From contig OZ020523.1 in the NCBI GenBank assembly GCA_963971425.1, positions 10,288,867 through 10,352,866 on the forward strand: a stretch of DNA of 64,000 nucleotides, in the 5' to 3' direction. The notes under the pieces are model-generated. The model did not search any database, had not been told where the DNA came from, and saw nothing but the letters and a program-made list of their open reading frames with translations. Positions within the stretch are counted from its first letter, which is position 1. Each line of letters opens with the position of its first letter. The position numbers and the translations under genes are program-made. Below, in pieces: positions 18,899 through 44,077 of the stretch. Source of the stretch: Bryoerythrophyllum caledonicum (taxonomy: Eukaryota > Streptophyta > Bryopsida > Pottiales > Pottiaceae).

Positions 18899-19999
18899 GT
18901 CCTTCTCATAGAATCGGTAAGGCTTCAATTTATTGATGTTGACCAGGATGGGATTTGGCTCGAAGTTGTCCACCGTGACCAAGAGGGCCGTATTGTTGGG
19001 TAACCGGTATTGTATCCGGTAAGGCCCAAACCACCGGCTCTTAAATTTTCCGGCGTGATCCTTGTGGCTCTTAGGATACCAGAGCACGTGATCGTCCAAC
19101 TAGAAATCCTTTTGCTTGTAGTGTTGTTGACTCCATAATGCCCGGTCCATTGCTTCACTCCAACCCGGGCTGAAGATTGGTAACTATCCATTTGCTCCAA
19201 ATCCGCTACCCGGGCTGTCAAGACCCTGGTCGGGTTGTAGTCCAGCTGGCCCGTCACCGTCTTGGTTGGCACTATGTACTCCGTTGGCATGAGGGGATGC
19301 AGCCCGTACACCAGCTGGAACGGAGTATGCCCAGTAGACACTATATACGTCGTTCGGTATGAAAATAGCACCGTCGGGAGGTGCTCATCCCAATCAGTCC
19401 GCTGGTCATTCATGAGTTTGGTCAAAAGCCAACCAATCACCTTGTTTGTGCTCTCCGCTTGGCCATTACCCTAGGGATAATAGGTGGTGGATGTCCGGTG
19501 TTGGAGCAAAAAGTGATCCACGAAGTATTGGATTGCCTCGTTGATGAAGTGGGTCCCCTGGTCACTAACTAGAGTCAACGGACACCCGTAGCGAGTAAGG
19601 ATCTGCTCATAGAGAAACTGGGCAGTAACCACTGCCGAGTTGGTCTTCAGTGCGCGGGCTTCCACCCACTTTGTGGCGTAGTCGGTGGCTACTAAGATAT
19701 ACCGGCAGCCTGACTGGGATGCTATTGGCTTGATGGGGCCAATTAAATCCAGCCCCCACTTCATAAATAGCTCCGCTGGCATACTCGCCACCAATTGAGC
19801 CAGTCCCGTGTTCGCCATCCCTCCGACCCGCTGGCACTTATTGCATGCCCGACAATATTTCAAAACGTCTTTGTGAAGGTTTGGCCACCAGTAACCGGCG
19901 TCCAAAATCTTCCGGGCGGTGATCTCCTAGGAAAAATGTCCGCCGCCACTACCGTTGTGTAACTCCTTCATGATCAGGTCCGATTGCCTCACGTCCAGT
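18899..19999 (-). pseudogene. gypsy integrase
   Basis: The region shows a zinc-binding segment (YWWPNLHKDVLKYCRACNKCQ), then the core with its first aspartate in GLDLIGPI, the second in VSDQGTHFIN, and a TAG just before GNGQAESTNK, which carries the catalytic glutamate. The C-terminal part retains the LFSYRTTYIVSTGHTPFQLVYG block and, at 18900-19100, WFGPYRIQYRLPNNTALL and VNINKLKPY, the GPY/F-type module of gypsy integrases. The stops at 19098 and 18899 fit CAG-to-TAG changes. Confidence 0.9.
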
Positions 20000-20001
20000 A
20001 C

Positions 20002-20961
20002 TCACCGGAGGACTAAGTCTTGGCCACGTTTGTGAAGAATGCCGCTAATGAGGGTGAATGGCAACGACTTCAGGGTCAGCTTCTGTTGCTCGTCTCTTGT
20101 CAACTCCGGGCATAAGACTCCAGTGCGGAGGTACGACACCACGTCCGTTAGCCACTCGGAGTGGACATTAAACAACCCGGCGTTGCCGATCCGATCTTCA
20201 ATGCCGGTAGCCGGCTCTCCATTGGGTAGTCGGGATAGAGCATCAGCAATTCCGTGTGACTTCCCGGGCTTGTATACCACTGTGAAGTCATATTCCTGGA
20301 ACAAAAGTAACCACCGGACAATCCTTCCAGGCACCTGAGATTTGTTAACCAAATAAATCAAAGCCATGTGATCAACAAAAAATACCACTTTATTACCCAA
20401 TAAATAATGCCGATACTTGTTTAAGGCATACACCATTGCCAGGGCTTCACGTTCCGTGGTCGTATAATTTTTCTCGGCTGAATTCAGCAGCCTAGATGCG
20501 TAGGAGATGGGCTAGTCGCCCTTGCCGGTCGGATTCTGGGCTAGCATTGCCCCTACGGCAAGGTTAGACGCATCCGTGTGGATGTGGAACTCCAAGTCCC
20601 AGTGTGGGACAATCAAGATCGGGGCGTCTTGGTAACGCCGTTTGATGTCGAGCCAGGCTGCCTCACATTGGTCCGTCCAAACAAACTCTTCAGTCTTGCG
20701 CATGAGTCTGGTGATTGGCTCCATGATGTAGGCGTAGGATTTTATGTAAATCCTATTGAATTGGGCAAACCCGTTGAACACTTGAATGTTCGCCGACTTG
20801 GTCGGCCTGGGCATTCGCTGGACCGCCTCTAACTTCTCTGGGTCAAGAAACTTCCCGGCCTTAGACACAATGTGCCCTAGGATGATTCCAGAGAAGACCA
20901 AAAAGACACACTTCTCTGGGTTCAGACTGATGCCGTACTCCCGGCACTTCTCAAAACACTT
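20002..20961 (-). pseudogene. gypsy RT connection and RNase H
   Basis: The frame contains LDPEKLEAVQRMPRPTKSAN, LMRKTEEFVWTDQCEAAW, then the RNase H start FHIHTDASNLAVGAMLAQ with its first aspartate, a TAG before PISYASR, and later FVDHMALIYL and YKPGKSHGIADALSR with the DALSR signature of the gypsy RNase H C-terminus. It degrades the RNA strand of the hybrid. Two stops, one TAG and one TGA, are present. Confidence 0.9.
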
Positions 20962-21660
20962 CTAAAGCTTCTCAAGGTGAGTGATCATGTCATTGTAGAC
21001 GGTAAAGTCATCTAAGAACAACTTCATAAACACGTCGATGTAGTCCCGGAAGGCCTTGTTCACCGCTCGCTGGTAGGTAGGGGGTGCATTCTTCAACCCG
21101 AACGGCATAACAATCCACACAAAAGCACCCCAGTTTGTCACGAAGGCGGTCTTATACCGGTCTTCCGGTGCTATCTTGATTTGATGGTACCCGGAGTACC
21201 CATCCAAGAATGAATACATTTCATGCCCAGCCACTATGTCCAGGACCTGCTCCATAAATGGCAATGGATACAGGTCTTTCTTCGTGGCCGCATTTAACTT
21301 CCGGAAGTCGATGCAAATCCGGAGCTTCCCATTCTTCTTCGCGACCACGTCTATGGGAGATAGCCAGGTTGCATCCTCGACTGGGCTGATAAACCCGGCT
21401 TGTAAAAGTTTGTCAAGGTCATTCTTGACAATACTTGCGTAATTTCGGTTCATCCAGTACCGGGCCTGATGAGCCGGCGGAATGTCTTTCTCCAACTCAA
21501 TTTGGTGTTCAACCAAAGAGGGTGGAATACCTTTGAAATCCTTATATGTCCATGCAAACACGTCCTTGTATGCATGGAATAGAGCTTCCGCTCGGGCCAT
21601 GAGTTTCGGGGTCAAGTCGGCATTGACTTGGAGATACTTGGGCTCTTCTGGTGTCCCCAC
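20962..21660 (-). pseudogene. gypsy reverse transcriptase
   Basis: About 230 residues are open and well preserved. Visible motifs in order: the H-I-E/L region before DIPPAHQARYWMNRNYA, LLQAGFISPVEDATWLSP, LRICIDFRKLNAATKKD, YSFLDGYSGYHQI with the first catalytic aspartate, the TAF..W.AFVW.VMPFGLKNAPPTYQR block, and the catalytic pair in LFLDDF (FLDD form of YxDD). It synthesises element cDNA from RNA. A TAG at the LEKL/KCFEK boundary separates it from the connection domain; relatives have Gln there. Confidence 0.92.
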
Positions 21661-21717
21661 ATTGATCTTTCGGAGCTGCTCAGCCTTGGGTAGACTTCAG
21701 CCGGCAACCTTCATTGA

Positions 21718-22240
21718 CTAGACCTTAACCCGGGCTGGTGTCTCATTGATCCGGATGTCACCCTCAGTGTGAGTATAAAAGTGAGTCGGGTACTCTCCCG
21801 GTTGGGCAGCGGCTGGGATCTCCTGGTGGTCTTCGGAGGCACCGCGGCTTTGCAAAAATGAACCAGGCACTACCGGCTCTTTGGGCTGTCCCGGAGGCAT
21901 GTTTATGTCCGGGGTCGGGCTGAAGTGTGGTATAGTCACCGTGCCGACGCCAGAACATCGGGTTCCGTCTCCAGCCACCGGGCCTCCTCCTCCTCCGTCA
22001 GCCTTGTGCGAAGTTGTAACATACCAAGACCGTTGGTAGCTTTGGCCGGGGTCCAGTCTTCGGGTTTACCCGGATGGTCTTGACCGTTCCGGCTCCCCGG
22101 ATGGTCACCAAGTTGTTACCCGAGTCATACGTAGCCTTTGCATCAATCAACCAAGGTCGTTCGAGGAGCATGCTATACGCCTCGTTCACCTCCTTGTTGT
22201 TGATGACCGTCAATGTGATCAGGTAGCTAGAGGATGTCAT
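21718..22240 (-). pseudogene. gypsy protease (part 2) and protease-RT spacer
   Basis: After the insert the frame continues as LITLTVINNKEVNEAYSML, then LERPWLIDAKATYDS, a segment typical of the retropepsin C-terminal side in plant gypsy elements (consensus LGRPWL). A Pro-rich linker follows to the reverse transcriptase. A 4-bp GCTA excess at the insertion border shifts the frame. Confidence 0.75.
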
Positions 22241-22242
22241 GA

Positions 22243-22655
22243 ATGTTAATTTTTACATTCTCCACGTACAAAGAAGTGGGCCCCACACATACATTGACAC
22301 ATAAGCTGCCACGTAGGATTCCATGTCAGCAAGAGAATACATCATTGTCCACATCAACCGCCACGTTTTATTCCACGTCACACATAAAATCCACATCATT
22401 ATCTACTTTAAATTCCATGTCACACTCAAATCCACGTCAGTAGCCACCTCATCAATCTTTAAGGATGATGGGCCACATCAGCAGATGGATGAGAAATCCA
22501 CATGGCAAAAAGAATGACTACAGAAATCTATTACTCAAAACTATTACTGTGCCCGAACAAAAAATTTCTTAGTCATTCCCTAGTAATACAGGTCATCTAT
22601 GACTCAAAAATGACTAAAATCGCTAGTCATTGATGCCTCGATTTCCCGTAGTGTA
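22243..22655. mobile_element. Insert in the protease gene with one CACTA-type end
   Basis: Its right border is TTTCCCGTAGTG, the complement of CACTACGGGAAA, a CACTA-type terminus, followed by TAG. The interior repeats CCACGTCA/CCACGTAG-type motifs like those in the CACTA element at 8526-9941. The left border lacks the matching terminus. Instead a copy of about 30 bp of the right flank (GATGTCATGAATGT...ATTTTTACATTCT) sits at 22233-22261. The protease reading frame resumes beyond 22230. It is a truncated or rearranged non-autonomous element. Confidence 0.65.
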
Positions 22656-23601
22656 GGGGATGTCATGAATGTAAATTTTTACATTCTTGATCAGTCTCAC
22701 TGGTTCCACCGTGGTCTGATCAGCCATCTTCAACCGGTATGGTGCCGGCTGAGTTGCGCCGAGACCCAGCCTCTTCCGTTCTTCTTCGGTGATCAGGTTG
22801 ACTCCGGACCTAGCGTCGATTAGAACACTGTCTAGTGTTCCATTGCCGACCCTGACTGTCAATACTGGTAGGTTCCGGTCAACATCCACGGAAGACGTCA
22901 ACACGGGGTCAGTCTCCGGGATTGGATCCGATAAGGCCGGGGTCAGGTCTGGAGTGACTGGTGCAGGGGCTTCCGGAGAATTCGTGGCCGGAAAAAGGTG
23001 GGCTCTCATGTACTCAGTGAGGTTGGGTGCTATATGCAAGAGCTCCAGTAACCGTCACGGTGACTGGACTCTCCAGTATCGTCCGGCTTACGGTATGGAA
23101 AGCGTCCTCCGAGCTGATGTTCAAGGCTGGCTGTGACGCCGGCCTAGGAAACTGAAGTACATCCGTGTCCGGGAATTCTGCCCAATCTGCCGCCATGTGT
23201 GCTTCACCATCCTCCTCCGGGATGGCCAGGAGTTCTCCCGATGGTCCGGTCCGGTCATTGGCCTCTTCTCGCTAGATGTCGTGTATGATCTTAATCATGT
23301 CGTTTCTAAGGCGCTCTTCGGCCTTCCACTGCTCCAGTGTCAAGGAACTCCGGGCCTCTGGGACCCTATCTTCCTGATCAGGAGGTGGCAAGCCGGCCTT
23401 CAACCGCTGTGCCTCTACCTCTACCTCCGCTTCTTCTTCCAACAGCCGGGTGGTGATGCTACTCACATGGTGTTTGGGTTTTCCTTGTGCCTTGGCGGAA
23501 GAGGCTAGAAATGCCTCCCAATCATGCCTATGCGAGCAGTTGTAGTGCCGATGACCAGGTTGCTTGCATAAAAAACATATCTCCGGCTCGTTACTTCTCA
23601 T
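22656..23601 (-). pseudogene. gypsy second zinc knuckle and aspartic protease (part 1)
   Basis: A second CX2CX4HX4C knuckle (CFLCKQPGHRHYNC) lies near 23540-23585. The protease follows, with the active-site region at about 22800-22830 reading VLIDARSGVNLI. In relatives the residues after the aspartate are S/T-G or G-G, so the catalytic triplet is altered here. The frame continues to IHDIPY at 22656, where a foreign insert begins. Confidence 0.8.
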
Positions 23602-23649
23602 GTTGGAGTTCCCTCCGGGTCGTACATATTGAAGCCTGGAGTAACTTCC

Positions 23650-25918
23650 CTAACTTGATTGGGGTTGGGGGTTCCCAGTGGCCGGCTTGATGATGACTTT
23701 ATTCACCCCGAATGTGGTACTATCATTGGTCCTATCAGCTGGACCTTGGGAATTTGCCGTATTAAACCAACATTCCGCGTTCGTGTGGCTCGACTGCTTG
23801 CATCCGTTGCAATACCTTTGGGGGGCCTCCTGGGCTGGTGCCTTGCTAGCTGGACCGGACCCCTTGCTGCCTCCATCACTTCTCCGGACTTCAACCCGGG
23901 TTGTCTTCCCGGTGGAGTCGGTAGAGTTTTCTTCACATCTTAGAGCTGCATCAACCAGCTCCGTTAAATTCCTGACCGCTAAAACACTGGTGGGCACCTT
24001 GATGTAGTCCAGTAGTCCAGCCCGGAAATTTGTAAGCCGGAAACCCTCGTCGGGGTCTCACTATAAACACTTAATTAGAGTCATAAACCGATCGTAGTAG
24101 TCCTAGATCTTCTCCCGGTCCTACTACTTGAATGATTTCAGCTCCCGGTAGACCGCCTCATCTGCGGTCTACTCCCGGTATCGGCGGCGGAATGCTGCTT
24201 TGGCCTCCTCCCAAATACAATCCAGGTGGTTCTCCTAAAATGTTTCATACCAGGCTCCCACCTTATTGATCAAGGTAGTGCCAAACAAATTAGTAATGAT
24301 TTGCTCCTCGCACTCGCCATTATGCGACAATGTGCGCTCAAATTGCCGGATATGCGCATCCGGGTTACCTCCTTCTTTGTACTGGACATAAGGTAAAGGT
24401 TTTCGATGACCCAATGCCCATGTGGTCGGGAAACCCCGGGCTGCTGGTTCCAGCGGCCTTCCTGGGTCTGCAGCCAAGGCTGGTGGTCTTGGAGGGTCAC
24501 CGGGTGGCCAATAACTCCGAACACCTCGACCGTCGTCCCGGGTAATTGGGTGCCCGGCTTTCGGTGGAGCGGCTCTCTACATGTCCACCGATGGATAAAT
24601 CCCCCCCCCGTGAGGTGATCCTTATAGTCCACCAGCATTGTCGATCTTTGGCTTGGTCCATATGGTGGAATAGTACTCCCCAGGTTGATAGTTGGACCTA
24701 GGTATGTACCTGGGTCCGCTGCCCCATGTACTAGGGCTGGAGTTAGAGCCGGTCGTCCACCCGGGCCTGTGATATGCCACTCACTAGGGCCGGGTATCCT
24801 TGGTGGAAGTCCGGGTGCTCCGTAAAACTCCTCTCCAGAGACATTCCGCCACCTAGCCAACGGGTCTGGTGGTGGTAGTTCGGTGTGAACGGGCTGTTTG
24901 GGTGGTTCCATCATTGTCTTGGATTCTTGCCAAAGTCGGTAAGACTCTTGTTGCATAGCCCGGGCTTGCTCCTTCTTCCTTTCTAGCTCCCGGTATTGGG
25001 CATATAGACGCTGGTCCTCCAACCGTTGTCTCTCCGCTTCCTGTCGGCGAATCGCTTGCTCCTGATCCTTTAAGGAGCCCATAACATCGGCTAGGTTAGG
25101 TAGTGGCGTGAACGCCAGCGGCTCCCCACCGCCACGTCCGACTGGGTCCAGAAGCTCTCTCATCTGAGTACGGGATAGGTCCTCTCTGGCCCTCCGATGT
25201 CGTGCCTCCTATTCGGCTTGTGACTGGGCTCTCCAAGCCTCATATCGCCGGTAGTCCTCCGGGGTGTCTTCGGCCGGTTCCGGAAAAAACTCTTTTGGAA
25301 ATGGAGGTGCTGTCGATGATAAGTGAATCCCGTCAACAGCCCGGTGTCCAAGAGCTGGGAGCCCTATGAGCGGTCCATACCTCATTGGCTGGTCTTGTTC
25401 TAGCCGCCTTCTCATCCGCTCCAGGCTATCCAGCAAGTTGGCTGGTGTGCGGTTCTCCTTCGGTGTTGGGGGTAGACTGGGCACTTCATCAAAATGTACC
25501 CTCATGCTGACCGCATTGGGGTCCTCGTGCCAATGGTACACGGCTGGGGGTTTCTCTATGCGGAAGTCCCTTCGTTGTATCTCCAATTGTCTTCTATCTT
25601 CGCCAATTGGCTCCGATTCCCCCCTCCTAGGAATTGTTGACCGTTGGGTTGAGCTCCGGGTTGTCCGCCAGGTTGCCCTCCTGGATAGTCCGATCTCCAG
25701 GGTTGGATCTGGGATAATTCCGGTCTCTCCAATTCTATGTCTCTCTCATGTGGTGAATGTGAGGCTTCCTGTACGCTGGCCTCCGAGCTCATATGTGGTC
25801 CGCCCATGACCGTGTTAACCTCTAATTTGTTCGGCCGTAGTACGAGCCGGGTTGTACGCGGTTGCTGGAATTGACTCCCTACATCTCCTAGACCTCCTCC
25901 TCCCTGGTCACCATCCAT
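23650..25918 (-). pseudogene. gypsy gag (matrix/capsid and first zinc knuckle)
   Basis: The likely start is ATG 25918 (MDGDQGGGGLGDVG). The N-terminal part is Pro/Gly/Gln-rich, followed by a charged coiled-coil-like stretch (QEAERQRLEDQRLY near 25000). The capsid-type retrotransposon gag domain is recognisable around 24100-24480 from YKEGGNPDAHIRQFERTL and NLFGTTLINKVGAWYETF. At 23750-23800 is a zinc knuckle with CX2CX4HX4C spacing (CNGCKQSSHTNAEC). At least five stops, nearly all TAG, and one or more frame changes near 24300-24500 inactivate it. Confidence 0.85.
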
Positions 25919-27325: not shown

Positions 27326-27950
27326 TGTTAAAGGGAGATTGACCTACAAACTCACTTTCACATAAATCCTAGAAACCCTAATGAAACCCTAATGAAACCC
27401 TGATTTGCTCAAAACTCCTCATAAAACCTCAAATCACGTCGGATTTTATTGACTAGGTCATAGTTTTTACATGGCAAAGTCTTTCCAACTCGATGTGACC
27501 TCAAAACCTCTACAAACTCCTCTAAACCCTAATTGTGTCTAAGCTCCAACTCGATGTGACCTCAAAACCTCTACAAACTCCTCTAAACCCTAATTGTGTC
27601 TAAGCTCCAACTCCTAGTTCCAAGTTGCAAGAGTGTGAGAGAAAGAGAGAGCTCCAAGCTCTCCCTCCATGTGCACCAAACCCTAACTGAAATCATCCGG
27701 CGGATGAACACTGGGCTGGATCAAAGTCATCATGCTGCCCAGGTTCATCCAACTGGCGGATGAAAATTGGTCAAGATGGAAATCATCCGCCTGGCCAGGT
27801 TTCATCCAGCCAGCCCAGTGGATGAAACACTGTCCAGGACGGAAATCATCCGCTTGGCTAGGTTCATCCACTGGAGAGCCCCAAAACTCAACCGGCTTCA
27901 AAAAAGAAAAATACTACCCGGGTCCGCTAATCCTGGTTCTCCGCTTAACA
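27326..27950 (-). repeat. 5' LTR of the gypsy element (625 bp)
   Basis: This LTR is about 70 bp longer than its partner. It carries an extra tandem copy of the segment around CTCGATGTGACCTCAAAACC (about 27495-27612) and an extra AATGAAACCCT. It contains several GGATGAAA/TTTCATCC motifs. On the minus strand the next bases (27325 downward, TTGGCGACCATGCATAAG) are where the primer-binding site should lie; TGGCGACC is compatible with a tRNA 3' end but the tRNA was not identified. Confidence 0.95.
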
Positions 27951-28790
27951 GTAGTGCTCATGGAAGATTGCGCACCGGTCCATTGCTGCAAAATATGTGA
28001 AGAATGGAGACAAGCACGCCTTCTTGAGAAGCTCAATTGGCCAAAATACTCTCATGATTTCAATCCAATAGAGAACCTCCGGAAGATTCTAAAAGATGCA
28101 ATACAACGTGACAAGGCATGTCCTAGAAAATAGATGCGTTAAATGTAGTTCTTGAAAGAGAGTGGAAGTCAGTTAGTGACACAAAGTTCATCCAATTATA
28201 TCATTATATGCCCTCTAGGTTACAAGCAGTGATTGGCGCTAATGGAGGACATTCACGTTGGTAGATTTTGAATAACTATTTTTGTGTGTATGTTTTGGCC
28301 TTGAAAAAATTTACACATATTATCAGCATAACAAAAATCTTGTGACAAAAATTTCATATTTAAATAACATATTTTTCAGCCCTAGAGAGGTTGTCAAAGT
28401 TGAAAGTTGTAAAACAATTTTCCCCTTTGTATCTCACAACTACACATGTTGGTAGATTTGGTATATCATTTTTTTGGTGGGTCTTTTGGACTTGAATCTA
28501 TTCACACATGTGATTAACATAAAGATGTTTCCACTCCAAAAATTCCACGAGAATAAAAAATTTCCTCAATCCTTGGGAGGGTGTCAAAGTTGGCAGCTGT
28601 GAAACTTTTCTTACATCTACCCCTTGTTGGTAAATCTTGAATACCTTTTTCTGTATAAATCTCCTGGCCTTGAAAATTGGTACACATGTTGTCAACATAA
28701 AGATGATTCTACATCTAATATTTCATGGTAAAATAACAAATTTTCAGTCCTAAGGAGGGCGTCAAAGTTGACAGCAATGTGGACACTGTC

Positions 28791-29076
28791 CCTAGAATTG
28801 CACAAGGCGCCAATTTGGGTGTCAGTGTGTCACCCCACATATACCCCTCAATAAATCTGCAAGTGAGTGATGCTCATGATAATCACATTCCTTCTACATC
28901 AATGTACAGTACAGAAACTTTTATTCAAAAAAATGGTACAAATTAGAATCTAGATTCCAATGCCGCGGAGAGAAGATCATATGACGGCAAAATTGAAGAG
29001 AGACAAGCTCTCTAGTGTCGTTGTAGAGCTGGTCTACTGCAGGTCTGCGGTTGTGGAATTCGGGACTGTCTACGCA
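28791..29076. other. 3' flank of the MAPKK fusion gene
   Basis: This is sequence between the mariner arm and the stop codon of the MAPKK gene. It presumably contains the 3' untranslated region and poly(A) site of that gene; no unambiguous poly(A) signal was chosen. Confidence 0.5.
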
Positions 29077-32000
29077 TCATCTCGTGTGGCGCCGGCCCGT
29101 GGTAGACCTAGCTCCTGCCTGTACGGGTCGAGCCTCGAATGTTGTAACGTATGGATGGTCCAACAACATCGCCGCAGAAGGCCGGCAGTTTGGTTTCTTC
29201 TGCAAGCACTTGGTGATGAAGTCTGCGAACTCGGGAGAGGCATCCGCTGGTGGCGATGGTGGGTCTCCCACGCAGATGGCGAAAAACAGAGTTGGCCATT
29301 CCAGCTTCTCTCCAGGTTTGAGGAACGGGAAGCGGCCGATTGCGCACTCCACGAGAGTGAGCCCCAGGCTCCAGATATCAGCTGGGTATCCATAATCTCC
29401 TCCGTTGCCGTCCGGGTCGAAGCGCTCCGGGCTCATGTACGCGCACGTCCCTACATATGACTTGCACTGCTCCAGCGAGTTCGTCAACACAGCGCTCACC
29501 CCAAAATCCGCAATTTTCACCTCCTGCTTGCGATTCAGGAGTAAATTCGAGGGCTTGATATCCCTGTGCACGATATTGTGCTGGTGGAGGTAGACTAATC
29601 CGAGCAGCACCTGCTTCGTCACCTCGGCCAAGTAGTGCTCGCCAATCTTCTTCTGAGCCTGGAGCACATCCGCCAGCGTGCCCCCGTCCATGTACTCCAG
29701 CACGAACGAAATCTCGCCGCCCCTGTCGAACACGCCGTAGCATTCCACCACATGCTGCGACTTGGACGTGCGCAGAATGGAGATCTCGCGCATGATCTGC
29801 CGCCGCACCGCCACCTCGTACTTCTCCTGGATCACCTTGAGCGCGTACTCCTTGCCCGTCCCCTGGTGCCGCACCTTGTACACCTTGCCCCCGCTGCCGG
29901 CGCCCAGCATGCCAATCTTCTCCAGATCAGCAAGCGCCACGTCCCTGTTATGCGCCATTTGTGGCCCTCCGTGATGAGCCCCCCCACCACTCACGCCCCT
30001 TCTCGCCGTGTTGTTGCTCCCGTCCACCGGAGGCGGAGGCAGCGGCAATGGCTGCGGCACCGGCGACTGCTGCGACCGCTTTGCAGTCAATATCTGCAGA
30101 AACCAAAGAGAAAGTTAGCACGTTGCTAACTGACGGTGATTGTCAGCGTTGGAGGGATCTTAAATGTACGCTTCCACAGATAGAATCGACTGGACGAGCA
30201 AAAGGGAACACTCTCATGAAGGAAATTAACTTTCAGCACCAGGTAAAATAAAGCGAATGTGGAGTGTCATAGGGAACTGACCTGCTCTTTCAATTGGCTC
30301 TCTGACGACTGAAGCTTCTGCATCGCCTGGACAACCACTGCAGGATCTGTATCCATAGCAACTTTGATGTTGATCACCATTTCGTACTTACTACAAATAC
30401 ACAATGAGCGTGGATGAAATCATATCTGAACCACATAAAACGATAAGATTGATACCAGCGATGGTTCCAGGGGGAAGGAGCGGATCTTGCGTGAAGGCGT
30501 TCTTCCATTCCTCTAGCTCCTCATTTGCAGCACCAAGAGACGCCTACAGAGACATTTCATAACACGCCTAAATAATGCTTCAAACATAGTGCCTTGGGTA
30601 CAACTTAAATCATAGCAACTGACCTTCTTAGCAGGACACAACTCCTCTTCATCATCATCAAGATCTGCGAACTCTCGCTTCACCCCTGCAACACATGGAA
30701 CTCTACCCTAAGCAACTCAAAAAAGCATGGTTCACTATCATCACAGAAAGAAACGCCAAAAATAAAAACAACCCATGCTCGGATGCAAAAGTCACATCAA
30801 ACAGAAAGCTACAAGACAGAAACGATGTTCCCTCGGTTGAATGCTTTCTAGCAATCAGGTGTTCTTCGTGAATTATTGATACAGTGATCCACCGCAACAT
30901 TAAAGAAAAGACTCTTAAAAAACCATGGCAACACCAGGTGAAACCTTTCAACATAAAAATGGAGATTTATTTGTTACTTGCGCCAAGATGACACCATGTG
31001 AACATTCCATTCCCGAAGAATCTGAAACCATGTTCCCTCACACCTCCGAGCACTGCTTTCTATCATTTCAATTCCCTTTCTGAAACAGCAATAGCTGATC
31101 CACCGAAGAGGTGCCATTGAAAGTAATGCTAACCTGTCATGCCATTCTCTCCGCCTGCATCTCCATCAAAGTCGAACGAATCCTGCAATCAATAAATAAC
31201 TCGGTCAGCCAACATAGACAATATATCACATGCTTAATCAGAAACTGTGTGCCTTCAATGACGAATCTGAAACGAGCATATTGAATGAATGTGCTGAAAC
31301 TCTAAACCCTAAATCGCACCATCAGTCTCTGACTCACAAGATGCTAGACTATCAATTTCATAACTTATCGATGAGAAATGAACCCTCATGACGACAGGTG
31401 AAACTCCACGCCACTCAATTACACCAATCCAATACAGAGAAAACTATGCAACAAGTGTATGAAAACACAGGACGACACGAGCTTCGCAATCAGTTCAGGA
31501 GCACAAAACCTAGAATAAGCTCTCATGTACAAAAATCCTCAGATAGTAAGCACAGCACAAGATTCAAGAGACTTCGTGTAGAAAAAACAACAAGTGCCAT
31601 ATGAACGGGGAAAGAGACATTGAGCTCCGTACCGCCATTGCAATCAAGTTGAAACCTAGTATAAAAGCGCTCCCAGGTCACAGACACAACCGCAGTCCTC
31701 TCTCTCCCGTTAACCCTCACCTAGTGCGCACGCACAAAATTCACGGGCCTCCCACATTACGAGAAGAATTATGCAGCAACGAGGAAAGCGAGATTACGCT
31801 TCGTACTGCCATTCAAACACAAAACCTAGAAGGTAGAGTGACCTCCCATGCTTGCTAAATAATTATTAAAAAAAAAGACAAGAATTGTGCAGCAAACAGA
31901 GATTGAGCTCCGTTGCGTTCAAACCTAGAATAAAAGCTCTCCGAAGTCACAGACGCAACCTCAATCCTCCCTCTCCCAGTAATTCTCTCACAAAATTCAC

Positions 32001-32259
32001 AAAAGCAGAAAAGCCTCCCGCATATATTTATTTCTGCAGGAAAAAGGAGAAGAAAGAGACACCGCGCTCCGTACCGCCATTGCGATTGCGCTGGTGAGCG
32101 CAAAACCTCTCCAGAAAGCCGCACTTCTCTCTCTCTTTCTCTCCCGGTAACTCTCTCGCAAGAAATTTCACGAGTGCACGAGGAGTGACGAAATGCAGAG
32201 AGGCGAGGGTTTAGTCTTACGTCGTCGGCGAAGGCGGAAGCCACTTTAGCGGACGCCAT
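29077..32259 (-). CDS. Chimeric gene: FIP37/WTAP-like N-terminal exons spliced in frame to a complete group-D-type MAP kinase kinase
   Basis: Six exons can be read: 32221-32259, 31134-31182, 30624-30685, 30456-30543, 30282-30346 and 29077-30093. All introns are GT-AG with phases 0, 1, 0, 1, 0, giving about 439 residues. Residues 1-101 (REFADLDDDEEE, EELEEWKNAF, LLPPGT, QKLQSSESQLKEQ) resemble the N-terminus of plant FIP37/WTAP, the m6A-writer scaffold. About 20-25 residues of that family and its entire coiled-coil body are missing. The last exon is a full MAPKK: a Pro-rich LPLPPPP docking-like leader, GAGSGGKVYKV loop, ALKVIQ lysine, HRDIKPSN, DFG, activation loop SLEQCKSYVGT with the plant S-x5-S phosphosite spacing, and SPERFDP, as in MKK7/9-type intronless kinases. 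The MAPKK leader codon expected to be ATG is TTG (30088-30090). The next in-frame ATG is at 29958. If spliced as read, translation starts at 32259. A separate MAPKK transcript starting inside intron 5 is the alternative. Confidence 0.7.
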
Positions 32260-32667
32260 AGCCAATCGATTTGGTGTGCGAATACAATCTCTCTTCCGCT
32301 TCCCGATCATTGCCTGCTTCTTCTTCTCCTTCCCACGCTCTTGCAGCCTTCTTCATGGGTTTAAGCTACAGCGTTGTTGTCGTCCTCATCGACCCCCCCC
32401 CCCTTCCGGGTATTACCGTAGTATCACGGGAGTAATGCATTGCCTCCGGGTTTTGCAATGGTATGCCGGGGGTGTTACGTGAGTATCAATCGCCTTCACC
32501 TTTCTCAACATAGTATCAAAGGAGTATTGCGTGGATATTAATCGAGGAGAGTATCAACCGGATATTCTATGGATATTACGTGATGCTAGTGAATCCGAAC
32601 ACAATGTTGTTTTGAATTAATTTCCCACTTCCTACTAAAAACCTAATATTTCTTTTAAAAATAATTT

Positions 32668-32806
32668 AAAAAGTGTCAAAGTAAAAGCATAAAATAAAAG
32701 CCTCTAGTAAAAGCATGAAAATCTTTCTATATTGTAGATAAGCTTGACGGCACTGACACACGCACGCACGGAAACCAATTCTATTAATATTAATATAGAC
32801 TAGTAG
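32668..32806 (+). repeat. Repeat tail, copy 1 (ends AATATTAATATAGACT)
   Basis: AAAGTAAAAGCATAAAATAAAAGCCTC, then GATAAGCTTGAC, GCACGCAC and GGAAACCAATT, ending in TTAATATAGACT, match a second copy at 44150-44316 in the same order and orientation. Directly after it (32807 on) starts a segment related to the fold-back arms at 33205. It is probably the 3' tail of an unclassified dispersed element. Confidence 0.65.
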
Positions 32807-33204
32807 AATTTGTGTCTTCCGGACACAAAGTTGGTTTGTGTTAAATTCCCACTTCCCATGTCCCCAGCTCTGCCTTTTATCCGCGTCCCGTCCCCTACTC
32901 CATCGTCCCCCCGTCTCCGTCACCATCCCCCGTCCATGTCTTCGTCCCCCTAATCCATTGTCTTCGCGTGCCCCTAACCAATCGTCCCCCCATCTCCTTC
33001 TTCATCCGAGACCCCTGACCTACCGTACTCCGTCCCGGATATTCTCATTTTGAGACTTTGTTTCAATGTTATGCCTCATTCTTAATTCAAAGAAACCAAA
33101 TATTGATACTTTTGCCATCTTCTTTTGGGGGTTCACATATTCTAAGAAAAGAAGCTTTGTCATTGAAACATGGCATTTATCTATCTATATCTATATCTAC
33201 TAGA

Positions 33205-33895
<691 letters not shown>

Positions 33896-33899
33896 TAGA

Positions 33900-35520: not shown

Positions 35521-38500
35521 ATGGCTGACCAAACCGAGGAGACTTGGCGCCAGAGAAAGACACGACTTCAACGCGATTGACGTCGACGTCAGACATTGGC
35601 TCGGAGAGAGGAACGTCAACAACAGCGTGCAACACGCCAAGAGGGCAATGCACGTAATGTCCGTGAAGCCGATCGCCAACGCCAAGCCACAAGTCGTGCT
35701 CAAATGATCGACAAAGCGCGAAATACCTAGCAACAGACAGTTCGCGAAGCCTACGCTGAGGCAAGAGCGGCACGCACAGTCGAAGAAAGTCTTGGAGATC
35801 TCCTACTACACCGTGGGGCACCTGTAGCTCCGCATGCGACAATACCCAAAGAGGTGAGAGGAGAGATTCGCAGGAATGATTGAGCTACGCGTGCTGAACA
35901 AAGGGCGGATGTCACCAATCGGCTCCCACAAACGCGGCGTGATTTTGATGGCAGCAACAAATGCCTACGCCACAAACTAAATCGGATGGAGGTGCGATGT
36001 GACCATTGTAACGCTTTACATTAGATCGAGGATCGGATGACGGGTTCGTCACAAGTACGTCCGGGCTACACCACATGCTATTGTTGCGGGAAGGTCCAAA
36101 TGCCCCCATTGGCGCCACCACCGCCAACGCTGCGTCGTCTACTGGAAGGCCAGACACATGAGGCCAAACCGTTCTGTGAGCGCATACGAATGTACAACAA
36201 TGCGTTTGCATTCACTTCGGTAGGCGCAAGGATTCAGGACGACATGGCACACAGTGGCGTATACAACTACAGATTGCACGGAAAGTTTTACCATCTCATT
36301 GAAAGCCTCCTTCCCAACGAGGGCGAGACACCAAAGTTTGCCCAAATCTACATCCATCATCCACAGATGCAGATTATCCGGCGCCTTGCCTTTGCAGACC
36401 AGCTTGACGCCAACATCATGGAAGAGCTACAACAGATGCTGCAAGAGCACAACTCGTACGCTCAGTTGTACAAGAATGCGCGTCAAGGACTGAACACCAA
36501 GCCTGCAACGCTATTGTCGCTTCAATTAGTCACACTACGAGAAAACGATGGGCAGCGGTACGATATGTCAACAGCGGATGAGATCGGAGTCCTCATGGTC
36601 GGAGATGGAACAGATGCGGAAGGAACATCACGCGATATTGTTGTCAAGAAGATTGCCGGTCGGTTACAACTCATTTCTATCCTGCACCCTTCATACATCC
36701 CAATGCACTATGTGCTGCTCTTTCCCAACGGTCATGATGGGTGAGACCCGATTATTGCGTTGGCCGGCTTTAGTTACAACCGCGATTCCAAAGAATTTGT
36801 GGAGAACTCGGAAAGCGAGGCAGAGGCTATTCGCGGGCGAGGCAGATCGAAGCGTGTTTCAACCACTCAGTTCTACGCGTACATCCTCCATGTGTGCAAC
36901 GACAAACATATCTTTCGTGTTGGACACCTGCTTCAGCAGGTAATTGTTGGCAAGTACGCCTGCGCTAAATAGAACCGTCTCAATTTCATCCGCCACAACC
37001 AAGCCAATCTTCATATTGATACTTACAACGGTGCGCAGAATGCACTAGACCAGGGTGACGTCGATGTGGCGCAGATCCGCCAGAAGCTCATTCTTCCATC
37101 GTCATTCACCGGTGGGCCACGCCAGATGGTGTAGTTTTATTAGTATGCAATGGCTATTGTCCGCAACTTCGGTGTCCCCGACCTCTTTTTGACATTCATA
37201 TACAATCGGAAGTGGGAGATCACACGCGAGCTACTTCTAGGCAAAACAACGAGCGACCCGCTAGATTTAGTGAGCCGTGTGTTCAACTTGAAGCTGAAAG
37301 AGCTGCTGAAAGATCTAGAGAAGGGAGTGTTGGGGACGCCGGAAGCAAACGTTTGGGTAGTTGAGTTTCAGAAACGCGGTCTCCCTCATGTCCACATGCT
37401 CCTCATTCTCAACGATCAATCAAAGCTACGGATTCCAGAGGAAATTGACAGCACGGTTTCCGCTTAAATTCCTGACCGTGATACCCATCCGTTGGCATAC
37501 GAGACCGTGACAAGATGCATGATACACGGGCCGTGCGGTGCAGCATACCGGTACCCTTTGGCACCGTGCATAAAGGACGAAAAATGCACAAAACAATACC
37601 CCCGCCACTTCAACCCAACAACGCAGATGGATGATGATGGATACCCCAAATATCGTCGACGCGACAATGGACGCATATTTGTTGACGCCACGGCAACGCC
37701 ATTGATAACAAGTGGGTGGTGCCACACAATTTGTGGCTATCAACCAAATACAATGCCCACATCAACATTGAGGTAAGATACTTGCCCCAGATGCCTCTCT
37801 AAGGTGTGTAATATTTGTAGCTTACTATTTGTAGTTTATACAGATTTGCTCGACCATCCAAGCTGTCAAGTACCTCTTCAAATACGTCTACAAAGGGCAT
37901 GGTTCCGCTATAGCGGTGCTTCAAGAACCGATTGACGAGGTGAAGCGATATATCAACGTTGGTTATGTGTCGCCTCCGGAGGCCGTTTGGCGACAATTCA
38001 AATTCAGGCTGCAGGCGGGATCGCCGCTAGTTACATGACTACAAATCCACCAGCCAAATGAGCATCGCATTACGTTCAACGCCGGCGAGCCACTTGCCGA
38101 GGTCATTTCCTGCGCGGCAGATTACAAGACAAGCTTGACAGAGTTTTTGGTCATCAACCAGACCGATCCGCTTGCTCGCCGGACGCTTTACCAGGACATG
38201 CCCAAGTACTTCGCGTGGAATGTTTTACAAAAGAAGTGGAAGCGGCGTCAGACGAGAACGGCAATCGGACGGATGTATTGTGTTGGGCCGTCGGACGGTG
38301 AGCGGTTCATTGCACGAACCCTTTTGGGGGTGGTGAAGGAAGCCACGTCCTTCGAGAATCTACGGACCGTTGACAGGCGTATCCACGATACCTTCAAGGT
38401 TGCTTGCGTTGCACGCGGTCTGTATGAGACAGACAAGAAGTGGGACCAGTGCATGACATAGGCGGCAAGAATGCAGACCGAAGCGCACCTACGCTCATTG

Positions 38501-41500
38501 TTCGTCACAATCCTCACACACCGCCTTCCAACAGCTCCGCTACAGCTTTGGGAACGACACAACGTCCACATGGCCGACGATTGCGCACACTGGCTTTGTC
38601 AGCGTGGGATTGCGCAGACAAATGAGAATCAGATAAGGAGGAGGTACCCATACCCGACAAGTTAAGGCGATTGGCACAGTATCAGTAAGATTACAAGTTG
38701 GGAGAAATTTTTTGAAGGAAGGGAAATAAGGTTCATGAAGACTGAGCATTTTTTGAAATTTTTTTTAGCAAAATTGAAATTACTACAAATTTTTAAGGTG
38801 AAAAGTTGGTCCGAATGGGTAACCAACATATAGCTTCACCAATAACCAATAACATGAAGAGCAATTCTGGAACACAAGTCCACTAATACCCGTGATAGGA
38901 GATCATTAATTTCAGCTAAACCTACTCCCTGGAAATTAAAAAGAAGGGAACTAAAAACCTCTAAGCAAGAACCTTCATGCGAGCAAGGAGTGGCTCACAG
39001 CCTGTGCAGAGATAAACAAAAGGCCATGACCGCATGGACCGCATGTCGTGCTGTATCACCCCAATTTTGGCTTGCATCACTCCGACTTCCAACCTGGCCG
39101 GCCTGTTGAAGGTGAGGCACCCAAGCCCGCGCTTTTCCTCCAACGGCCCTCTGACTCACTCTCGCTCTCCCGCTCGCTGCTCTCGCGCCTGGAGCTCTGA
39201 GACTGATGGTGATCCCCATTGTGGCACACGAAATGTAGGGTGGAAATTTTGCACAGGCGTTGGCTGTAGAATTGGTTGTGATGGGTGGGTTGGCATCGTC
39301 GATATCATTGGGCCACCAAATTGGTTGTGCAGGAGGCGTGCGTCCATGTAGAATTGTTGATGCATCTGGGGCGATGGTGGTGTAAAGGTCGCAAACTGAT
39401 TGGGGATTCCACCTGGAGCGAAGGTGAAGTCCCTGCGCCACGGCTCCGACGCATGGCCGCTCTCCTCCCCAGCGCTCCCGCTTGCGTGCGCTTCCTCCGA
39501 GCTCCCGACTTGCTGGCCCTGTGCTGTCGCCGTTGCCCTCCCGCCGCGACGACGCGGGCCGACTCGCTCTGCAGCCAGCCTGGCTTTCTCTGCAGCTTTC
39601 ATGGCACGCGTCGCTGCGACCTGAGCAGCGCGCTCAGTTCGCATGCGCAGCGCCAGTTCCTTCTCGGCGTTTCTCTGCTCGCGCGCTGCAGCTGTTTCCA
39701 GCGCCCTCGCCTCCTTCTCGAGCGCCTTCCTATGCTTCGCGGCCTCTTTCTCCTCACGTACCCTCTCTTTCTCTTGTGCTGCTAAATCTTTTGCCTCTTT
39801 TTGTCTTTCAACTGCCGCTGCATACTCATCCGAGGTCAATATCTTGGACTGTGTGAAATCCAGGATGGGATCGCGCCTTCGGGGATTTGCACGGGCAGCA
39901 ATGGTGGGCAACGTCAGGAATCGAGTGATCGACTCGGGCTCCCCCTCATCGAGCTCCAGCCTCGCCAATTCGTTGGCGACTTCTTCGTCAGTGTGATCCG
40001 GCGCCACAAAAAAATGTGCCGCAGTTGAGTCGGGGACTTCGTCGAACTCTGCCTCCATCGACTGGGAGCTCGCAGCCTCTAACGGTACGTCGAAGTCTCC
40101 CGTCCTTTGCGGCCCTGACTGTGGTTGCTCCGTAGGACCTCCGCCCTCTGCCGTTTCCTCTCCGACTTGTGCAGTACCTGTCTCGTAGAATATTTCTGAC
40201 GGTGTGAGATGTCTGTTCATGGCTGCAGGGTTGATGGGACATATACCTGTGCCGCGGAAGCCGCTCAGAATGTTGCTCGAGGTGAGAGCTTTTCGCAACC
40301 CCAGAGAAACCCACTGCGCTAGAGTAGTCTTGTTTGTTGGTTGAGACATGTTTCGAGATGTCCAATAATCTCGGTAGGCTCTGAAATGTAGCTTGAATGG
40401 CTTGAAGATACTAACGTCAAGTGGGTGCATGGCGTGCGATGTGTGCGCAGGTAGCGTGAGAATGTCCAGCCCTGGCGCACGAGCCTCTCTAACGACATCG
40501 AGGGTCACATGCGAATTATGCCCGTCAAGAATTAAGAGGTGCCTGCGTTCTTGCGAAATACCGCCCTGTCCTTGCACACTCTCAATGAAGTGGGACAACC
40601 ACGCACTAAACAGGTACGTAGTCATCCAAGCCCGGGGCTGCATTGCCATCGTAGCCCCGGGCTCGCACCTTTCAATGTAGTTCTGCCTGAACCTTGTGCC
40701 CCGGAAAACGTAGAAAGATGGAATAGCTGACCCCCCTGCGTTTATGCAAACTAGGACAGACAGCCACTCTCTCTGATCCGGTACGATTGAATGAACATGC
40801 CGTGCGCCTCTGCGAGCGATGACTACACCCCCACCATTGCGCCCCGCTTGCGCCCCCGACTCATCACAGTTCCAGATTTGATCTGGACTGTAATTGTGCA
40901 AGGTACATAGACTTTCCAAATTGTCATAGAAACTTTTGACGTTAGCAGCACACAATCCCTTTGCCCGTGCGGTTTCTAGAGCCTGTGCTACTCGTAACGT
41001 GAGCTCTGGGTGGCGGCGCTTCCACCAGCGCATCCAGCCCTGGCCCGGGATACCATTGCGGAAGGGTGTCGGCCTGGACTTGGTTATGTCGTAGACCTTC
41101 AACTTTAATGCCGTGGGTGTAAGGCCTAGTCCCAATTCACACATCCGTATGCAGTAATCGACTAACTGTTGCTCCTCAGCTGGACTTAAAACTGCAGCAG
41201 GTCCTCTCTTTCTAGTCCTCCTGATGCCATAACACCACTCTCGAAATGTGGAATAAGGTATGTGATACATATCAGATGCTTTTTTCATGCTCATACCTCC
41301 ATCTACGCATGCCATTGCTTCTCTAAGTTGGCTGCTCGTCCATGGTCTCTCACGTCTTGTGCTACTGCTGCTGCCACCTCTTTGCCGTCCCTCACGAGCT
41401 CCACGGGGTTGTGATGGCTGTGTACCGGGGCTTTGAAGGATAGCCCGAAATGCCGAGGGCTGTGTAGGAGAGTCGGAGTCCAGGGCGGTGATGTCCTCGA

Positions 41501-44077
41501 TGGAGTGCCCCTGTGACTGCCGAACCGCTCCCGTCCTTGCTGCTCTCGTCGACCTCCTCAGCGGAGCCCCACGTGAGACCACCCCGCTGGTGAAGAGGTG
41601 AACGCCTCCGACGTTCCTGTACAGCCCAGGGCCCGCTGCTGATCGGCCAGGCTGCTGAGACAGTCCCCTTGCTTGGACGCCATCGGAGCCACCCCGTGCT
41701 CTTTCACCTGCTGAGCCTCTCCGTGCTTGCAGACTTGCTGTGCCGCTGGAGTCTCCACGCTGCCTCTGCCGGCTTTGCATGACCATGTTCAGTTGGCCGT
41801 AGTCCATCATCTGGTTCCCTTCGGCCTCCCCTTCTTCACTACTACCTCCGTCACTGCCCTCCATGTTCTGATCCTCGTCCTCTAAACCATCCCCACTCTG
41901 GTTATCCTCATCTGACCAAGTTCCCTCATAGTGATCACTAAGTGCTACGGTACCATGCAGTTGAGGTGCCATGATATGCTAGTGAAGGCAGCACTTGTAA
42001 CTATTGAAATTGCACAATAAAACTATGAGAATGTGAGGAAGAAGTGTTTAGAATGATGTGTGGAAAGGTTGCCTCAAACCCGACTTCTTATTGCTTCTTG
42101 CTTGACGTCACAGATTTTTAATTCTGACAAAGATGGAACTAGTATCTGCTAATTCTGCACCAATTTTCAGTTAACATTCATTACCACAACCGAGCCTTCG
42201 ATTTTCTGGAAGTTGTCATTAGGTGAATGCAAACCACCACACCACCACTGCCATCATGGCCACAACAACTCTTCTATTTCCATTTTCTCAGAAACTGAAT
42301 GCTAATCCCGGGTGCAACCATTTCCGCACTGTTCAATTACCCAGCGCTGTCAGTCAGTTTTCCAATATTAAAAAAAAATGTCCACATTGGATCATGACAT
42401 GTGCAACATCCGGGAAGCCTACATGCTGAGCATGGGGAGCCTCTCGGGTATGGGTACCTCCACCTTACGTAGCCTTGCCTTGTACCTCATCAACGATGAC
42501 TTTGCCACCACGATTGGCAAGTCTCTCGCCAACTTTGGCCTACCCAATTCGTCCGTTGCGCTAGACGAGCTTGAGGTTGAAGGCAATCGACTGATCCGTG
42601 ATCAGCTTGAGAACAGCATTCTGGCGCTTCAGGAAAAACTGAGAAGTACGCTATCCACACTAAACGCTGATCAGCGCGCCGCGTTTGACGCAATTCACAG
42701 TGCCCATCAAGTTAGCAAGCCTGATATTTTTTTCATCGACGGCCCTAGAGGAATGGGAAAAATATACTTGAGGAACATGATCCTCTACTCCGTCCGTGCA
42801 AACGGTGACATTGCTCTGGCTATGGCATCCTCTGGAATTGTTGCGCTCTTTCTTGAGAAAGGTTGGACAACGCACTCGAGGTTCAAGATTCACCTCCAAC
42901 TTACACCAACCTCTCAGTGCGCCACCACGCGCCAAATGGACCTTGCAAAGCTCATCCGTCGTACCAAGCTCATTCTCTGGGACGAGGCGCCCATGACACA
43001 CAAGCACGCATTCGAGGAGGTGGACCGATTGCTACGGGATATTATTGGTATTGACCTCCCGTATGGCGGGATCATCTTCGTCATGTGTGGTGGTTTTTGC
43101 CAAGTGCTTCCAATTCTTCCAAAGACGTCACGTCCGCAGATTGCGATGGCCTCCATCAAAGAGTTCCATTTGTGGCCACATGTGCAAACTTTTCGTTTGA
43201 CCATTAACATGCAGACTGGCGCGGACGGTAATAGAGCAAGCGAGGAACTTGGCGGTCGCACTTTTTCCGAATGGCTCATTGCCTAAGGCGAGGATCGCTT
43301 GCCGAGCGCCGACAATGGATACGTGCATTGCCCCCCAAGCATGATTGTTGAACGTGCACCAGCGTTGAACAATGGACAAGACAATGGTTGCGCACGCCTC
43401 ATTGATTGTGTATTCCTAGGTGTCCGCGGCGGATACCAAATTGCCAGCAGTGACTTTCTCAGCAAGCGTGCAATCCTTGCCCTACACAACGGCGGCATTG
43501 CGGGGATCAATGAGGAGATTCTGAAGTTCATCCCTGGTAATGAGCGGACCTATCTAAGCGCAAATTCGATCACGGACGCGGCAGGTGCAGACCTAATCCC
43601 CACCGAGTACCTCAACCGTCTGGACCCCATTGGCTGTCACTTAATGTTGGCACACCGATTATGTTGTTGCAGAACCTCGATCATGCAAACGATTTGTGCA
43701 ATGGCACGCGACTTCTCATCAGGCGGTTTGCACACTGGGTCATTGGAACGAAAGTCATGATAGGCGACCACAAAGGACACATTGCCTTTGTTCCGTGCAT
43801 ATCATTGACAAACGAGGATGTAGGATTGCCATACAAAGTCAAGCGCAAGCAGTTCCCTGTCCGACTTGCATATGCGATGACTATCAACAAATCCCAAGGA
43901 TAGACCCTCAAACACATTGGCATCGATGTCAGTAGAGAGGTGTTTTTTCATGGCCAGTTATATGTTGCATTCTCTTGCGCAACCTTGCCTGCCCACGTAA
44001 ACATTCTTCTGACAGATGACACGTATGGGAATAGTGGGTGCACACACAACGTTGTCTACACAGAAACACTTTATTAA
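35521..44077 (+). pseudogene. Helitron Rep-helicase gene, decayed, interrupted by a pogo-type element
   Basis: The start is ATG 35521 (MADQTEETWRQRKTR), followed by the Arg/Gln-rich N-terminus usual in Helitrons. Rep landmarks include ILHPSYIPMHYVLLFPNG, the HUH motif in QKRGLPHVHMLLIL near 37370-37400, and the tyrosine motif KYLFKYVYKG near 37870. The helicase part (42378-44077) has a Walker A reading GPRGMGKIYL (mutated from GPGGTGKT), ILWDEAPM as Walker B, and the C-terminal VRLAYAMTINKSQG and HGQLYVAFS. These would nick, unwind and roll out the element for rolling-circle transposition. Many in-frame stops are present, typically TAG for Gln and TGA for Arg, plus a frame change near 43640. 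Between about 38670 and 42380 the gene is displaced by foreign DNA carrying another transposase. Confidence 0.88.
39156..41972 (-). CDS. Intact pogo/Tigger-type transposase (938 aa)
   Basis: One uninterrupted frame runs from ATG 41972 to the stop ending at 39156. Residues 1-215 are acidic, Ser/Gly/Arg-rich and probably disordered. At about 215-250 is a psq-type helix-turn-helix (MKKASDMYHIPYSTFREW), then a CENP-B-like second DNA-binding module (about 260-330). The DDE_1 catalytic core has aspartates in IWNCDESG (about 370), LLILDGHNSH (about 483) and MHPLDVSIFKPFK (about 519), giving DD35D spacing typical of pogo/Tigger. The tail (about 700-850) is a long Lys/Glu/Ala/Arg coiled coil. It would cut and reinsert an element with a TA target site. 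It sits inside, and antisense to, the decayed Helitron gene and has none of the TAG decay seen there, so it is a later arrival. Terminal inverted repeats were not found by eye. A domesticated or still mobile gene are both possible. Confidence 0.88.
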   Translation of the reverse strand: MAPQLHGTVALSDHYEGTWSDEDNQSGDGLEDEDQNMEGSDGGSSEEGEAEGNQMMDYGQLNMVMQSRQRQRGDSSGTASLQARRGSAGERARGGSDGVQARGLSQQPGRSAAGPGLYRNVGGVHLFTSGVVSRGAPLRRSTRAARTGAVRQSQGHSIEDITALDSDSPTQPSAFRAILQSPGTQPSQPRGAREGRQRGGSSSSTRRERPWTSSQLREAMACVDGGMSMKKASDMYHIPYSTFREWCYGIRRTRKRGPAAVLSPAEEQQLVDYCIRMCELGLGLTPTALKLKVYDITKSRPTPFRNGIPGQGWMRWWKRRHPELTLRVAQALETARAKGLCAANVKSFYDNLESLCTLHNYSPDQIWNCDESGAQAGRNGGGVVIARRGARHVHSIVPDQREWLSVLVCINAGGSAIPSFYVFRGTRFRQNYIERCEPGATMAMQPRAWMTTYLFSAWLSHFIESVQGQGGISQERRHLLILDGHNSHVTLDVVREARAPGLDILTLPAHTSHAMHPLDVSIFKPFKLHFRAYRDYWTSRNMSQPTNKTTLAQWVSLGLRKALTSSNILSGFRGTGICPINPAAMNRHLTPSEIFYETGTAQVGEETAEGGGPTEQPQSGPQRTGDFDVPLEAASSQSMEAEFDEVPDSTAAHFFVAPDHTDEEVANELARLELDEGEPESITRFLTLPTIAARANPRRRDPILDFTQSKILTSDEYAAAVERQKEAKDLAAQEKERVREEKEAAKHRKALEKEARALETAAAREQRNAEKELALRMRTERAAQVAATRAMKAAEKARLAAERVGPRRRGGRATATAQGQQVGSSEEAHASGSAGEESGHASEPWRRDFTFAPGGIPNQFATFTPPSPQMHQQFYMDARLLHNQFGGPMISTMPTHPSQPILQPTPVQNFHPTFRVPQWGSPSVSELQAREQRAGERE

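Follow-up and report, generated by a model that had tools for sequence, protein, structure and literature searches.

On the minus strand of the window analysed here, 64,000 nucleotides of the moss Bryoerythrophyllum caledonicum placed by genome search at C11:10288867-10352866, six exons between 32259 and 29077 join at GT-AG borders, with phases 0/1/0/1/0, into an open frame of 439 aa. The exons lie at 32259-32221, 31182-31134, 30685-30624, 30543-30456, 30346-30282 and 30093-29077, and the frame closes on a TGA at 29079-29077. Genome searches covered an assembly of 437,360,962 bases in 894 contigs. Re-deriving this frame reproduced the exon model, with its borders and phases, that an earlier note on this DNA had put forward, and confirmed its in-frame junction between exons of FIP37/WTAP, an m6A-writer subunit, and a kinase exon. 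Upstream, no stop interrupts the frame as far as a further ATG in frame at 32310 (MIGKRKRD...), which native FIP37 shares, and the protein may be 17 residues longer if this ATG is the true start. By eye, the peptide beginning there resembles a nuclear signal.

The FIP37-derived 5' part

A search with residues 1-112 returned four matching proteins among 267 candidates (E up to 1), headed by a Ceratodon protein (E 6.2e-40) and Physcomitrium FIP37 (E 7.5e-38), and all four carry the Wtap domain PF17098. Together with the counterparts of exons 1-5 in the native gene, this bears out the FIP37 origin that had been proposed for the N-terminus. A second search, aimed at shorter pieces with residues 30-150 of a 200-aa query, matched three of 59 candidates; each was one of the four FIP37s already found, and no fusion protein appeared. 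Across residues 29-107 the fusion is changed at 3 of the 51 columns invariant in these four proteins and has nothing new at the 28 variable columns. It departs from FIP37 within about three residues of the start of the Wtap domain (residue 139 in one of the four), and PF17098 is absent from both the 439-aa product and residues 1-107. Searching the window with the four FIP37s by tblastn (E up to 10) revealed no downstream body exons, the sole coiled-coil matches being weak ones at 56.6-57.3 kb, upstream of the gene (best E 0.007). The FIP37 coiled-coil body is thus missing, as had been claimed.

The earlier note had suggested searching the genome for a second, full-length FIP37 gene. One is indeed present at C11:10389811-10392739, on the opposite strand and 67 kb from the fusion. 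This locus accounts for 10 of 15 genome matches, which span residues 11-328 of the FIP37 query except about 12, and nine peptides from its other exons are all present without a stop. Of the remaining five matches, three are the fusion gene itself and two lie elsewhere. An isolated FIP37-like exon at C11:15623207-15623419 contains one stop and is 71% identical over the match and 86% identical over 56 residues; it is perhaps a FIP37 pseudogene fragment.

Positions 32492-30076 of the window align, introns included, to C11:10388151-10390981 and so duplicate the 5' part of FIP37 at 89-93% identity. Homology begins at 32492 in the copied upstream DNA (32492-32260). Upstream of 32310 there are 27 mismatches in 131 positions and a 51-nt gap, and from 32310 to 32260 there are none in 51; these 51 nt are 5'UTR, or in-frame coding sequence if the ATG at 32310 is used. 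The FIP37-like DNA upstream of the ATG amounts to no more than about 233 nt, so that the new promoter envisaged earlier is borne out in part. Exons 1-5 and the opening 18 nt of exon 6 each have an equivalent in the native gene, where GT and AG stand at matching positions. Mismatches number 0/39 in exon 1, 1/49 in exon 2, 1/62 in exon 3, 5/88 in exon 4 and 0/65 in exon 5. Intron 3 (30623-30544) is 80 nt long and carries a 546-nt deletion, unmentioned in the earlier note, of two native FIP37 exons (IYSSGG...LRS and LEERDNTVAVLK). By protein alignment these two exons together make 34 codons, and the frame is therefore kept.

FIP37-derived sequence continues through intron 5 (30281-30094; 15/187 mismatches), whose acceptor TTTCTGCAG is identical in native FIP37, and into the first 18 nt of exon 6 (30093-30076), which have one mismatch and encode the unchanged residues ILTAKR. 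The TTG at 30090, previously taken for the place where a stand-alone MAPKK would start, is the Leu codon of these six residues; as it is also present in native FIP37, we rejected it as a decayed MAPKK start. Homology to FIP37 ends at 30076, 18 nt into the exon and where the Wtap domain begins. Past this point native FIP37 reads on with AGAGAAGG, whereas the window reads MKK sequence (TCGC), and the two share little or no sequence at the junction. As tblastn gave no body exons in the window and the copy ends so sharply, we rejected the idea that a kinase was inserted into a FIP37 gene otherwise left intact; of the two origins offered earlier, recombination with a duplicated m6A-writer gene stands and insertion does not.

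The kinase and the HMA-derived tail

The MAPKK fragment, of MKK7/9 type, occupies 30075-29133 and comprises a proline-rich linker and the whole kinase domain (Pkinase, E 2.3e-69 and 4.8e-69 in two runs). From 30065 to 29133 it is 85% identical in DNA to the canonical MKK of this genome. It begins at about codon 20 of that 366-aa protein, its first ~19 residues being gone, and extends to about 29133; this piece of group-D MAPKK origin has no MKK 5'UTR, promoter or start. The kinase had been described as entire, which overstates it: the missing residues include the docking motif, and the C-terminal tail is foreign. All close MAPKK relatives found in the genome (96 scored of 1083 candidates) lie on C11, the canonical gene at 8784439 (80%) and three paralogues at 10637289, 10692183 and 10816200 (75-76%). 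In DNA the fusion kinase is 87.5-88.4% identical to the three paralogues, and tblastn over 8.5 to 10 kb around each (E up to 0.01) detected no FIP37 exons near them. Each of these paralogues belongs to a unit of about 5 kb, and the units are ~97% alike. Directly upstream, and on the same strand, is an open frame of coiled-coil-like character whose Pfam matches are weak and below the cut-off. The paralogue activation loop has a one-residue insertion, and its first S/T site is seemingly lost.

Among 8000 scored kinase candidates 1415 reached E 1e-60, the top rows including Physcomitrium MKK9, and the best 120 of these 1415 were used for comparison. The FIP37 motifs that we tried occur in none of these best 120, against which the FIP37 half gave a top blastp match of E 0.58. 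In a 32-row tree, which leaves out the genome's own MKK copies, the fusion kinase falls in a 12-row clade (100/100) with Physcomitrium MKK9, in agreement with its earlier assignment to group D. The nearer fork (88/95) is drawn open, and the end branch of 0.51 is flagged as long. We call this the moss clade, an inferred label given that its other 10 members are listed without species name.

The fusion kinase is changed at 21 of the 190 columns that are invariant in the 11 moss-clade kinases, compared with 0 to 8 of 169 to 177 columns when each of these 11 is left out in turn. However, only 2 of the 21 fall in the 81 columns conserved at 95% or more in the 109 other kinases (hypergeometric P 6.5e-4). 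Measured against the best 120 of the 1415, the fusion has a residue other than the most frequent one at 2 of the 89 columns conserved at 95% or more and at 82 of the 126 conserved below 80%. Since so few changes touch the widely conserved columns, the kinase appears to have evolved fast, yet as a protein. The GxGxxG, ALK, HRD and DFG motifs are kept, and the activation-loop S/T-x5-S/T site is present (SLEQCKS at residue 307).

An N-terminal docking site is described for plant MAPKKs in the part of PMC5975520 available to us. The strict published patterns match none of the 11 moss-clade kinases and 59 and 5 of the best 120 of 1415, so that our docking test rests on a relaxed form, found in 10 of the 11 and in 104 of the best 120. 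The genome's own MKK carries the relaxed motif (RRSRGMGLSL), which is absent from the fusion and from its three sister paralogues; its loss may therefore predate the fusion.

A third donor, unmentioned in the earlier note, supplies the 3' end. The sequence from 29125 to 28891 matches C11:11021833-11022062 at 79% (E 2.5e-50), with 20 of 217 aligned bases differing, gaps aside. The matched DNA closes an open frame that encodes an HMA domain (PF00403, E 5.6e-8), and no such piece was found at the MKK or FIP37 loci. The frame of the HMA-domain gene is abandoned: the foreign C-terminal codons (29132-29077) are read in another frame to the stop at 29077, and a 3'UTR from the same donor follows (29076-28891), in which an AATAAA begins at 28925.

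Age, constraint and competing explanations

Against native FIP37, the introns of the fusion show 130 mismatches in 1765 positions and the exons 8 in 321 (Fisher P 5.6e-4), with 13 gap events in introns and none in exons. The event thus appears young, at ~0.039 intron changes per site per lineage. Constraint on the native gene alone, at half the intron rate, predicts about 12 exon changes; 8 in 321 is hence not decisive by itself, and some of the exon similarity could stem from selection on native FIP37. We also dropped the 0/90 mismatches over 32310-32260 and exon 1 as proof of constraint, as intron 1 also has an identical run of 118 nt.

A three-way NG86 comparison over 255 codons gave the fusion kinase branch, which includes time before the fusion, a dN of 0.028, a dS of 0.073 and a dN/dS of 0.38 (bootstrap 0.17-0.95; below 1 in 390 of 400). 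Paralogue A served as the third sequence, and paralogues B and C gave 0.40 and 0.39. The other branches had ratios of 0.50 (canonical plus stem) and 0.47 (paralogue). A parsimony count was less clear, with 9 nonsynonymous and 6 synonymous changes among the fusion-only codon changes. We further simulated neutral decay of the 1317-nt frame at intron rates, taking the age of the fusion to be that of the FIP37 copy and 75% of gaps to be frame-shifting. A fraction of 0.18 of 4000 runs had no stop and 0.0045 had neither stop nor frameshift; as the former alone is so common, the low value of the latter is due mostly to the gap rate, which was derived from the introns. These runs superseded a weaker simulation of stop counts that used only kinase divergence (P 0.075 to 0.14).

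Taken together, the reading frame looks to be under constraint. The same figures can be read differently, namely that three pieces were joined into a pseudogene whose frame has survived through youth and luck, at a locus that is silent or uselessly translated. The low intron divergence, the chance of 0.18 for escaping a stop, the 9 to 6 parsimony count, the out-of-frame tail and the 21 altered moss-clade columns all fit such a relic. An intact frame with a simulated neutral probability of 0.0045, a dN/dS below 1 in nearly every bootstrap and the retention of GT and AG in all five introns do not, and we consider a pseudogene possible, at a clear minority of the probability. That the protein library lacks the fusion was not counted against its expression, because this species seems to be missing from the library: the best of the listed kinases is 88% identical to the genome's own MKK, and the four FIP37 matches differ from native FIP37 in most exons.

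Several mobile elements share the window. Frames for reverse transcriptase, integrase and gag-like proteins of a Ty3/gypsy-type element were seen by eye at 18928-25700 on the minus strand, and 27708-28130 is presumably a Tc1-like transposase remnant, named from its motif. Helitron-type genes span 36025-43900, with a PIF1 helicase at 42372-43283 (E 4.1e-60), and a 940-aa frame for a Tc5/pogo-like transposase (39159-41978) interrupts them on the other strand; the frame at 36025-36741 has no Pfam match. Small Helitron-like elements are stacked at 32586-33899 together with a palindromic element at 33190-33899. Their ends show a hairpin (GTGTCCGGAGGACAC), about 10 nt and then CTAG or TTAG before T, which we take to be the rule for Helitron ends. 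Tc1-like elements are known from a moss, according to the portion of PMC4054914 that we could consult.

The chimera could itself be cargo, assembled by gene-fragment capture in a Helitron or a Pack-type transposon, which would be compatible with its being a chimeric gene. Such capture would account for short pieces of three genes that retain introns and lack long flanks, and for what flanks the gene: Helitron-like ends 5' of it, at 32586-32803, and 3' of it a dispersed 35-nt repeat from 28824 (at least 38 further matches in the genome; the query ended there). The nearest Helitron-like element (32799-32586), however, has both of its own ends and stops before the gene. A gene inside the element ending at 32799 is thus out, and Helitron-like ends were seen upstream of the gene only. 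The best candidates scored in the genome search included no further copy of the chimera, and donors on one chromosome fit local repair too; we therefore regard capture as rather unlikely. Chimeric fragments captured by maize Helitrons similarly join multiple gene pieces, as far as the part of PMC3288121 at hand describes them, whereas the fusion is known here without a bounding element. As to retroposition, group-D MAPKKs are mostly intronless in the accessible part of PMC5975520, so that the lack of introns says nothing on a retrogene origin; by eye, no A-tract was seen after the 3'UTR.

It is very unlikely that a dead FIP37 fragment merely precedes a MAPKK with its own transcription start in intron 5 or exon 6. 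The first in-frame ATG within exon 6, at 29958, would allow for this; however, it lies directly before the kinase domain and would leave almost no N-terminal extension, and the MKK fragment opens within the MKK coding sequence and brings along no 5'UTR, promoter or start of an MKK. An assembly error joining unrelated loci is highly improbable, given that both halves have private substitutions relative to the related copies found, that neither was found elsewhere among the best candidates scored, and that the join, which lies within a contig of 25.2 Mb, links coding to coding sequence in frame and on one strand.

Proposed origin and significance of the chimeric gene

A chimeric gene of three sources is well supported by these alignments. 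FIP37, duplicated in part and in inverted orientation, gave the 5' end, with ~233 nt of upstream DNA, exons and introns; a group-D MAPKK paralogue, itself intronless, gave the fragment in the middle; and an HMA-domain gene gave the 3' end with its tail and poly(A) signal. The three donors lie on one chromosome, and their pieces were presumably joined at the DNA level. Signs of damage, the out-of-frame tail and the two-exon deletion, sit beside this assembly. With FIP37 the fusion shares ~107 N-terminal residues, the placing of exon borders, the introns, the 5'UTR and the DNA close upstream, and it differs in lacking the Wtap domain and the 34 residues of two exons and in having a kinase domain instead. 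With group-D MAPKKs such as Physcomitrium MKK9 and the genome's own MKK it shares the kinase domain, the S/T-x5-S/T site, the proline-rich linker PVPQPLPLPPP and an intronless coding part; unlike them, it has neither a native start nor the basic-x-LxL docking motif, and it has a foreign tail and evolves fast.

Transcription would start in the FIP37-derived region, with splicing as modelled, and yield a MAPKK with intact catalytic and activation-loop motifs in which ~107 FIP37 residues replace the MAPK-docking motif. Because the fragment starts after the docking site and keeps the catalytic motifs and S-x5-S, an activatable kinase with altered MAPK choice is expected, possibly with FIP37-like localisation. 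On balance, we favour with some confidence a young, probably lineage-specific chimeric gene of three donors, encoding a MAPKK driven from a FIP37-derived start region and devoid of the docking motif. The plant likely uses it, judging from the sequence.

We found no report of a FIP37-MAPKK fusion in the open-licence literature, in line with the earlier statement that none was described, nor was the chimera or its junction, which had been proposed for comparison across species, found in any other species among the protein-search candidates (267 and 59). The nearest parallel is the natural MKK3-NTF2 fusion, which likewise unites a plant MAPKK with a non-kinase module and is recorded, in the excerpt of PMC5975520 seen, for 44 genes of 38 species; it is a group B kinase with an NTF2 module, whereas ours is of group D with an N-terminal FIP37 module in one genome. 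An expressed, active MAPKK acting in the nucleus near the m6A writer complex through the FIP37 N-terminus and FIP37-derived regulation would make a direct physical link between MAPK signalling and mRNA methylation. We think this decidedly unlikely. METTL3, an m6A methyltransferase, is phosphorylated by ERK (PMC12349697, as seen in part), which makes a MAPKK with an m6A-writer N-terminus worth testing.

To conclude, the locus offers what appears to be a clear case of a new gene soon after its assembly, with identifiable donors for its start region, middle and 3' end. As these donors can be identified on one chromosome, one can measure in what order the events took place, how MAPK docking was lost and how constraint changed. 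If expressed, it would be a kinase in which both the control region and the N-terminus have been replaced.
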